Below are positions 14,039 to 14,668 of a stretch of DNA of 64,000 nt, one piece after another. Positions within the stretch are counted from its first letter, which is position 1. Every line of letters begins with the position of its first letter. Under the pieces are notes generated by a model. It saw nothing but the letters and a program-made list of their open reading frames with translations, ran no database searches and was not told the DNA's origin. Origin of the DNA: Oscillospiraceae bacterium (lineage in GTDB: Bacteria; Bacillota; Clostridia; Oscillospirales; Oscillospiraceae); assembly GCA_017624715.1 (NCBI GenBank), contig JAGAMN010000020.1, forward strand, positions 1 to 64,000, read 5' to 3'. Made by a program: the position numbers and the translations under genes.

Positions 14039-14067
14039 TTGCAATTTTTGTGCATATATGCTATAAT
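14039..14067 (+). promoter_or_regulatory. Promoter of the riboswitch-rubredoxin operon
   Basis: TTGCAA (14039-14044), 17 bases, TATAAT (14062-14067); transcription should start about 8 bases before the purine aptamer. Confidence 0.75.
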
Positions 14068-14082
14068 TAGGTATCTGTTAAA

Positions 14083-14141
14083 GGTATATACTTGCAATAT
14101 GGGCAAGCGTTTCTACGAACCACCGTAAATGGTCGACTACC
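14083..14141 (+). promoter_or_regulatory. Purine riboswitch aptamer, guanine-type
   Basis: The three-way-junction pattern of the purine riboswitch is present in order: P1 5' side GGTA, TATA, P2 CTTGC, loop AATATGG, P2' GCAAG, the invariant junction GTTTCTAC, P3 with loop CCGTAAA, then GACTACC closing P1. The loop-loop contact bases (GG of L2, CC of L3) are kept. The base after GA is C, the guanine-specifying position (U would mean adenine). Oddities are that P1 is only 4 bp and the two P3 pairs next to the junction are mismatched (G-G and A-C in place of C-G and G-C). It is therefore a diverged member, possibly with altered ligand. The downstream genes are rubredoxin, a YgjV-like protein and a nucleoside kinase. 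Confidence 0.85.
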
Positions 14142-14175
14142 GGTTGATAAATCACCGAGGTAGTCGGCCATTTTG
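14130..14175 (+). terminator. Riboswitch expression-platform terminator
   Basis: TGGTCGACTACC (14130-14141) pairs over 12 bp with GGTAGTCGGCCA (14159-14170), followed by TTTT. The 5' arm is the 3' half of aptamer helices P3 and P1, so terminator and aptamer are mutually exclusive. Ligand binding should hold the aptamer and let transcription continue (an ON switch), as in the pbuE adenine switch; this logic is inferred from pairing. Confidence 0.8.
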
Positions 14176-14229
14176 CGGCCTTTTGGTGAACGATCAGCCA
14201 GCAGGAACATAATTAGAGGAGTGTCGGTT

Positions 14230-14437: not shown

Positions 14438-14668
14438 ATGAACATTTATTTGGAACTGTTTGGTTACCTGGGCACAGCCTTGGTGCTGTTGTCCATGATG
14501 ATGACATCTGTGGTCAAACTGCGGATCATCAACATGTCCGGTTCGGTGATCAGCGCAATTTACGCGGCGCTGAGTAACACCTGGCCGGTGGTGTTGCTGA
14601 ATTTGGGCCTGATCATCATCAATGCTTTCCAACTGCTGCGCCTGAAACAAAGCAGCAAGACGGAATAA
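14438..14668 (+). CDS. Small YgjV-like membrane protein
   Basis: 76 residues with two to three hydrophobic helices (GYLGTALVLLSMMMTSVVKL and PVVLLNLGLIIINAFQLL). Pattern and length resemble the YgjV inner-membrane family, whose function is unknown. AAGGAG sits 5 bases before ATG 14438. It lies between rubredoxin and the nucleoside kinase with gaps of 25 and 19 bases, so it shares their riboswitch-controlled transcript. Confidence 0.7.
   Translation: MNIYLELFGYLGTALVLLSMMMTSVVKLRIINMSGSVISAIYAALSNTWPVVLLNLGLIIINAFQLLRLKQSSKTE

Follow-up and report, generated by a model that had tools for sequence, protein, structure and literature searches.

The adenine pbuE riboswitch is an ON switch in which the 5′ arm of the terminator lies within the aptamer. 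Guanine-I riboswitches (RF00167), according to the available text of PMC9295807, commonly reduce the expression of genes for purine biosynthesis, salvage and uptake. The same text describes ON switches on the same scaffold, 2′-dG-III and xanthine-II, which precede purine-degrading genes, and guanine-II RNAs from Paenibacillus, which are predicted to be ON, retain U22, U51 and C74, and keep most variations of xanthine-II, an RNA that has a J3-1 insertion. Guanine-II RNAs are found mostly before PRT genes and have a J2-3 insertion and, on one reading of the available text of PMC9295807, a J3-1 insertion. Here we analyzed a 64,000-nucleotide stretch of DNA from an Oscillospiraceae bacterium (the window), in which a purine aptamer precedes genes for rubredoxin, a YgjV-like protein and a kinase (Table 1). 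Judging from sequence, we consider it quite probable that this leader is a guanine-type purine riboswitch working as a transcriptional ON switch, one of several ON-type guanine switches in its lineage.

Table 1. Features of the riboswitch leader and of the operon downstream (positions in the window).
Feature	Position	Strand	Evidence or remark
Sigma-70-like promoter TTGCAA-17-TATAAT, TG ahead of −10	14039..14067	+	10/12 consensus matches
Aptamer core P1-P2-P3	14083..14141	+	Rfam match covers 14062-14159
P1 5′ strand GGTA	14083..14086	+	partner TACC 14138-14141; alignment and pair count
P2 (CTTGC/GCAAG) with L2 AATATGG	14091..14107	+	P2 pairs covary
J2/3 GTTTCTAC	14109..14116	+	canonical guanine-type junction
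P3/L3: junction G54/G72 mismatched, helix AACCA/TGGTC, L3 CCGTAAA	14117..14135	+	outer A·C broken in window
Specificity position C74	14137..14137	+	
Shared switching strand TGGTCGACTACC	14130..14141	+	3′ strand of aptamer P3/J3-1/P1, also the terminator 5′ arm
Terminator 3′ arm GGTAGTCGGCCA (14159-14170) and TTTT (14171-14174)	14159..14174	+	
Rubredoxin, 60 aa	14230..14412	+	PF00301, 71 bits (cut-off 23)
Small YgjV-like protein (76 aa), by its family a membrane protein	14438..14668	+	PF10688, 20.6 bits, under cut-off 23.5
Kinase, 566 aa	14688..16388	+	C-terminal PRK/uridine-kinase-like domain; N-terminal half partly threonyl-tRNA synthetase-like

The RF00167 covariance model matched the window at 14062-14159 along the whole model (positions 1-102) with 50.1 bits, above the gathering cut-off of 37 and thus within the family (E = 1.7e-5 in a cmscan search of the 64 kb), and this was the sole match at E ≤0.001 in the window's genome, which is about 86% complete. 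The clear purine aptamer core described in the earlier note was found in all its parts, with the AATATGG and CCGTAAA loops, the GTTTCTAC junction and the C at the specificity position lying within 14083-14141, and the analysis confirms, as far as sequence can, that this element is a real purine riboswitch aptamer. In xpt numbering, we take 14137 to be position 74. The adenine class, which needs a U at this position, was rejected given the C in the window, and the combination of C74 with a canonical J2/3 is that of guanine-I. Guanine is the predicted ligand of the window aptamer; the proposal that it might be a variant with a changed ligand gained no support here, as A73, C74 and GTTTCTAC all fit the guanine consensus.

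The helices around this core are weak. P1 is only 4 bp long (14083-14086 with 14138-14141), as had been pointed out, and it is invariant across 11 of 11 aligned group members, these being distinct leaders from nine genus genomes and two further named MAGs; an outer UUAA/UUGA helix, across a small loop, could lengthen P1 in the window. The two junction-side P3 pairs are both broken in the window, as had also been claimed, but the alignment separates them: the G54·G72 mismatch is present in 11 of 11 leaders, indicating a group feature, whereas the next pair, A·C in the window, is broken in two leaders and paired in nine. By this alignment, the weakness of P1 and P3 is partly a feature of the whole group. 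At the pair that we take to be 25-45, the group leaders have G25-C45 (7 of 11) or A·C (4 of 11) compared with the consensus U-A. Folded alone in ligand-free form, the segment 14070-14155 had a best fold without the aptamer P1, and its stability was close to that of shuffled sequences (z = −0.58, with 44 of 200 equally low). Ligand binding might be weak, given the short P1 and the weakened P3.

These group features near the pocket, the G54·G72 mismatch and the G25-C45 or A·C in place of U-A, would suit an alternative in which the ON layout is the same and the natural ligand is something other than free guanine, e.g. hypoxanthine, xanthine or a G nucleoside, which would also suit the downstream kinase. 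The guanine riboswitches of C. difficile indeed vary, one preferring guanosine and one xanthine in the available text of PMC11477304, and G-nucleoside and xanthine ON switches are known on the same scaffold in that of PMC9295807. However, the known nucleoside and xanthine variants described there alter junction residues, while J2/3 GTTTCTAC, A73 and C74 in the window are canonical, and we regard a non-guanine ligand as possible but unlikely.

The overlap of the terminator with the aptamer, which the earlier note had reported, is borne out: the switching strand pairs over 12 bp with the terminator 3′ arm. The leader 14070-14195 folds with −47.5 kcal/mol (z = −4.44), a value reached by none of 200 shuffles; the U-tract in the window is only TTTTG, and many relatives have longer tracts. 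Because the terminator arm is the aptamer's 3′ strand, ligand binding should prevent termination, which is the ON direction. In all 11 leaders, with pseudoknot and ligand energies excluded, the aptamer fold of the partial transcript lies 0-2.0 kcal/mol above the best fold, and in the full leader, calculated with the same exclusions, the terminator form is lower than the aptamer form by 6.4-20.3 kcal/mol. On these fold energies, the ligand has to take effect while the terminator is still to be made, and it opposes termination. Given the promoter, the transcript should start at about 14073, so that the aptamer would be made at once; sites at the promoter's match level number 8 in the region compared with 3.6 expected by chance. 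Translational control was rejected, as the ribosome site (about 14216, located by sight) is outside the switching hairpin. The OFF control of purine uptake and synthesis genes that is typical of guanine-I, without defining it, is not what is found here, where the arm overlaps the aptamer and other genes lie downstream.

Conservation across the 11 leaders was assessed from pairing and from two-sided changes. The aptamer helices are paired in 96.4% of cells and show 9 two-sided changes, a number not reached in any of 500 shuffles and at most 1 in slid controls. Four aptamer pairs carry a two-sided change (22 of 500 shuffles had as many), and the further pair types were at the level of shuffles (401 of 500). 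Since P1 never varies, its covariation is uninformative. The terminator helix is paired in 91.7% of cells. Its two-sided cells number 4, a count reached in 10 of 500 shuffles, but all are at one pair, a number of pairs equalled in 331 of 500 shuffles, and after sliding by one column there were still 3 such cells. By these counts, the aptamer shows good covariation, and the terminator, the 5′ arm of which is fixed by the aptamer, shows little.

In the proposed mechanism, RNA polymerase would start near 14073 and make the aptamer first. Guanine, or a close purine, would lock the three-way junction and keep 14130-14141 in P3/P1, so that the terminator would be blocked and the rubredoxin, YgjV-like and kinase operon transcribed. 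In the ligand-free state, the same strand would pair with 14159-14170 in the far more stable 12-bp hairpin, and transcription would halt. At the level of the lineage, ON-type guanine aptamers would answer purine surplus, and OFF-type guanine aptamers would govern purine uptake and salvage.

To compare this layout with that of related switches, we classed 96 purine-aptamer matches from the family and genus by their first gene and by terminator overlap, scored when the best terminator 5′ arm shared at least 4 nt with the aptamer 3′ strand, a cut of our own choosing used without an energy cut; matches without any terminator were kept outside each overlap fraction. Gene classes were derived from BLAST clusters, profile scans of nine representatives and hand assignment (13 of 96 by hand, 2 unclassed), and the NCS2, ABC ATPase and lone rubredoxin labels, as well as some of the MATE and adenine deaminase labels, were given by eye. 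Before purine uptake and salvage genes (BMP-type binding protein 24, XPRT 16, NCS2 permease 4), 2 of 42 terminators overlapped the aptamer, two further matches having no terminator. In the YgjV/kinase group, consisting of nine kinase loci and a YgjV-like gene alone in G225, overlap was found in 10 of 10, each with at least 9 nt (Fisher 4e-9 against the uptake/salvage class, treating related genomes as independent). Other genes showed overlap in 35 of 38 cases, with one match lacking a terminator; they comprise guanine deaminase (19), a PF21688 flavoprotein (10), MATE (3), DUF6198 (2), adenine deaminase (2), and one each of adenosine deaminase, Se-dependent XDH and lone rubredoxin. Three of these 35 overlapping disposal-type matches depend on very weak hairpins (0.7, −1.0 and −1.1 kcal/mol). 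Two unclassed matches, both overlapping, and one ABC ATPase without overlap fall outside all groups.

As to the terminator classifier, whole-segment folding gave long imperfect hairpins and was replaced by a stem scorer that was later widened, which is why earlier and later overlap counts differ; before widening, the scorer gave 10 of 10 for the kinase group, 7 of 10 for the flavoprotein and 13 of 18 for guanine deaminase. The guanine deaminase overlap is often just about 5 nt of P1, making the ON reading weaker there. At the order level, 29 of 41 further matches were used, namely the better-scoring ones, which came as loci. Here, overlap was found in 0 of 16 uptake/salvage matches and in 8 of 10 before guanine deaminase (4 of 6) and the flavoprotein (4 of 4), with Fisher 2.9e-5 when relatives are treated as independent; three matches were unclassed, one of them overlapping, and no kinase was recognised as first gene in these 29 loci. 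The window's switch is therefore not alone but part of a guanine-ON set, its geometry recurring ahead of guanine deaminase, flavoprotein, DUF6198, lone rubredoxin and other genes. Support for the ON logic predicted in the earlier note comes from the geometry, from its presence in 10 of 10 switches of the group and from the contrast with uptake/salvage switches; on these grounds we infer ON behaviour of the window's switch. Across the lineage, the ligand would shut purine capture and open purine disposal.

Some features of the wider set deserve description in their own right. In four families of the order, ON-type guanine aptamers precede a gene for the PF21688 FAD-dependent protein (L031, L046, L048, L223, L238), whose class overlaps in 10 of 10 family and genus and 4 of 4 order-level matches; the window's genome has a PF21688 gene (L194) without a recognisable aptamer. 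The guanine deaminase gene of that genome (L192, G000:C67, upstream of 20466) is cut by the contig end and is preceded, by eye, by a diverged purine aptamer and terminator, where RF00167 is silent at E 0.001. Position 73 (J3/1) was read from model columns, in which a one-column shift is possible in some aptamers. On this reading, all 44 uptake/salvage aptamers have A there, and 15 of the 19 before guanine deaminase have T, G or C; with the same possible shift, position 73 is also non-A before MATE (3 of 3), DUF6198 (2 of 2), lone rubredoxin and Se-XDH (examples are L022, L133, L134 and L044). The pattern was absent in the order-level sample, where position 73 is A in 6 of 6 guanine-deaminase aptamers and G in 1 of 3 NCS2 aptamers. 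A non-A residue at position 73 could mark variant specificity.

The overlap data also bear on an ordinary OFF guanine switch, in which the hairpin-aptamer overlap would be incidental and another terminator would work. Guanine switches commonly lower expression in the available text of PMC9295807, all four C. difficile guanine switches are OFF in that of PMC11477304, and the window contains a weak GGCC/GGCC hairpin with TTTT at 14166-14183; yet this second hairpin was not seen by eye in 12 other leaders, the overlapping terminator is widely paired (91.7% of cells in 11 leaders), and uptake/salvage switches of the same family seldom overlap (2 of 42), so that an OFF switch appears very improbable. 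Also very improbable is a decayed aptamer ahead of a constitutive or otherwise regulated operon, which would agree with the weak P1 and P3, with an aptamer region that alone folds no better than shuffles and with the diverged aptamer missed by Rfam before guanine deaminase in the same genome, but not with a core that is unchanged in 11 sequences while P2 covaries.

The association of the presumed ON switch with its genes was followed in a sample of 101 genomes of the window's genus, of varying completeness, of which 35 had an RF00167 match at E ≤1 and 98 some match to the kinase. We read the regions upstream of 78 of 82 near-full-length kinase matches (E <1e-200), up to 1500 bases for 30 loci and up to 900 for 48, detecting aptamers by motif instead of by covariance model and counting as negative four regions of less than 500 bases at contig ends (L065, L086, L097, L099). 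An aptamer was found upstream of the kinase at 9 of 78 loci by this motif search. A YgjV-like gene preceded the kinase at 8 of the 78, all with an aptamer, i.e. at 8 of 9 aptamer loci compared with 0 of 69 aptamer-free loci (Fisher 3.8e-10, relatives treated as independent). Rubredoxin was in the operon at three of the 78, again all with an aptamer, and the remaining 69 loci had none of aptamer, YgjV-like gene and rubredoxin. The same genes without an aptamer, which the earlier note had named as the refuting case, were sought, and among the 78 kinase loci a YgjV-like gene upstream was never aptamer-free. YgjV-like matches occur in 15 of the 101 genomes; beyond the eight kinase loci, G225 has one behind an aptamer, and those in G271, G215, G263, G286, G201 and G292 have no aptamer recognisable by motif, the short genes of G271 and G215 lying on contigs different from those of these genomes' kinases.

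Aptamer carriers are scattered over a tree of 30 kinases, where four changes are needed, three of them forced by well-supported branches, and the sisters of G250 and G206 have neither aptamer nor YgjV. Because the relatives share descent, the tests are inflated. All three loci with rubredoxin fall into a single well-supported clade of this tree, and rubredoxin was rejected as a core partner, being found at only 3 of 78 kinase loci. The suggested coupling to redox proteins therefore does not hold for rubredoxin as a core component, but a PF21688 flavoprotein is frequent behind ON-type switches, and G214 (L133) has a lone rubredoxin controlled, by its layout, by a separate purine aptamer of ON type that carries T at position 73. 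A search of 84,980 species genomes, a set that may exclude the window's near relatives, for a signature with G at position 54 gave 12 stretches. Nine of them are from MAGs with the name Oscillospiraceae and one is from a Clostridia MAG; going by their names, two of these ten MAGs come from goat and roe-deer cecum. Of the ten stretches, nine precede YgjV and the kinase (at least one with rubredoxin first) and one the kinase alone, with genes assigned by eye and by comparison with the window. The other two are from Pseudogracilibacillus, with a purE-like gene downstream (by eye).

That the controlled genes are unusual for guanine-I was borne out, with rubredoxin, a YgjV-like protein and a kinase taking the place of purine uptake or synthesis genes. 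The PF10688 cut-off is passed by two of four scanned YgjV-like relatives, and no solved chain matched the YgjV-like protein by sequence at E ≤1. The YgjV-like proteins of L204, L208 and L209 are longer (about 200 aa), and a weak, sub-threshold POPDC (Popeye) match is present in L204 and in the short YgjV-like protein of L206. The label nucleoside kinase for the third gene stood in part: the PRK/uridine-kinase-like domain is present (PF00485, 55.8 bits, above the cut-off of 22), but the NCBIfam uridine kinase equivalog scored 89.4 bits, below its cut-off of 180. One part of its N-terminal half is similar to threonyl-tRNA synthetase (E 9.4e-5). Where the aligned uridine-cytidine kinase 2 chains have ipvydfvshsrke, the kinase has ipifnfklgkrqw. 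The tyrosine and histidine of the former stretch, which presumably contact the pyrimidine, are F and G in the kinase, which speaks against a plain uridine/cytidine kinase. One might guess that the YgjV-like protein and the kinase form an import-and-trap pair. A fluoroacetyl-CoA thioesterase-like gene (FlK, PF22636; 16432-16815, minus strand) is located just past the kinase on the opposite strand.

Taken further, and offered as a tentative and rather doubtful proposal, guanine aptamers of this lineage would have diverged into OFF switches for purine capture and ON switches for disposal and a redox/kinase module. Under purine surplus, the YgjV-like protein and the kinase would work as a pair, either import-and-trap or catabolic, on a substrate other than a pyrimidine nucleoside. 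Some ON aptamers, those with altered position 73 being an example, would have a changed specificity that has gone unrecognised. The contrast of OFF acquisition and ON disposal inside one lineage is open to simple transcription assays, and the YgjV-like protein, the PRK-type kinase and the PF21688 flavoprotein gain a testable link to purine surplus.

Among the open-access literature listings examined, none connects guanine riboswitches to this kinase or to rubredoxin, or names guanine deaminase as a gene that they turn on; the terms 'guanine riboswitch' and 'guanine deaminase' both occur in PMC9430930 and PMC7373994. Within open-access listings, an ON-type aptamer with guanine-I junctions before a rubredoxin/YgjV/kinase operon appears to be new, as does the split of ON and OFF by gene class, which may be known elsewhere, e.g. 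in the subscription literature. What stands out is that a guanine aptamer of canonical appearance has an ON layout and is followed by genes with which guanine switches are not normally associated.

Among the known systems, the adenine pbuE riboswitch differs from the window's switch in having U74 and adenine as ligand, compared with C74. The ON switches 2′-dG-III and xanthine-II have altered junction residues or insertions that the window lacks. Guanine-II and the window's switch are alike in being predicted ON, and the G54·G72 mismatch could be viewed as one extra nucleotide per junction, comparable to the one-nucleotide J2-3 insertion of guanine-II; guanine-II was rejected because a J3-1 insertion is absent from the window's sequence as aligned to the Rfam model, a weaker rejection in that this requirement is a reading of the available text of PMC9295807. 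Closest is guanine-I, with which the window's switch shares fold, loops, J2/3, A73, C74 and a score over the cut-off, and from which it differs by the G54·G72 mismatch and by a predicted ON layout before rubredoxin, YgjV-like and kinase genes.
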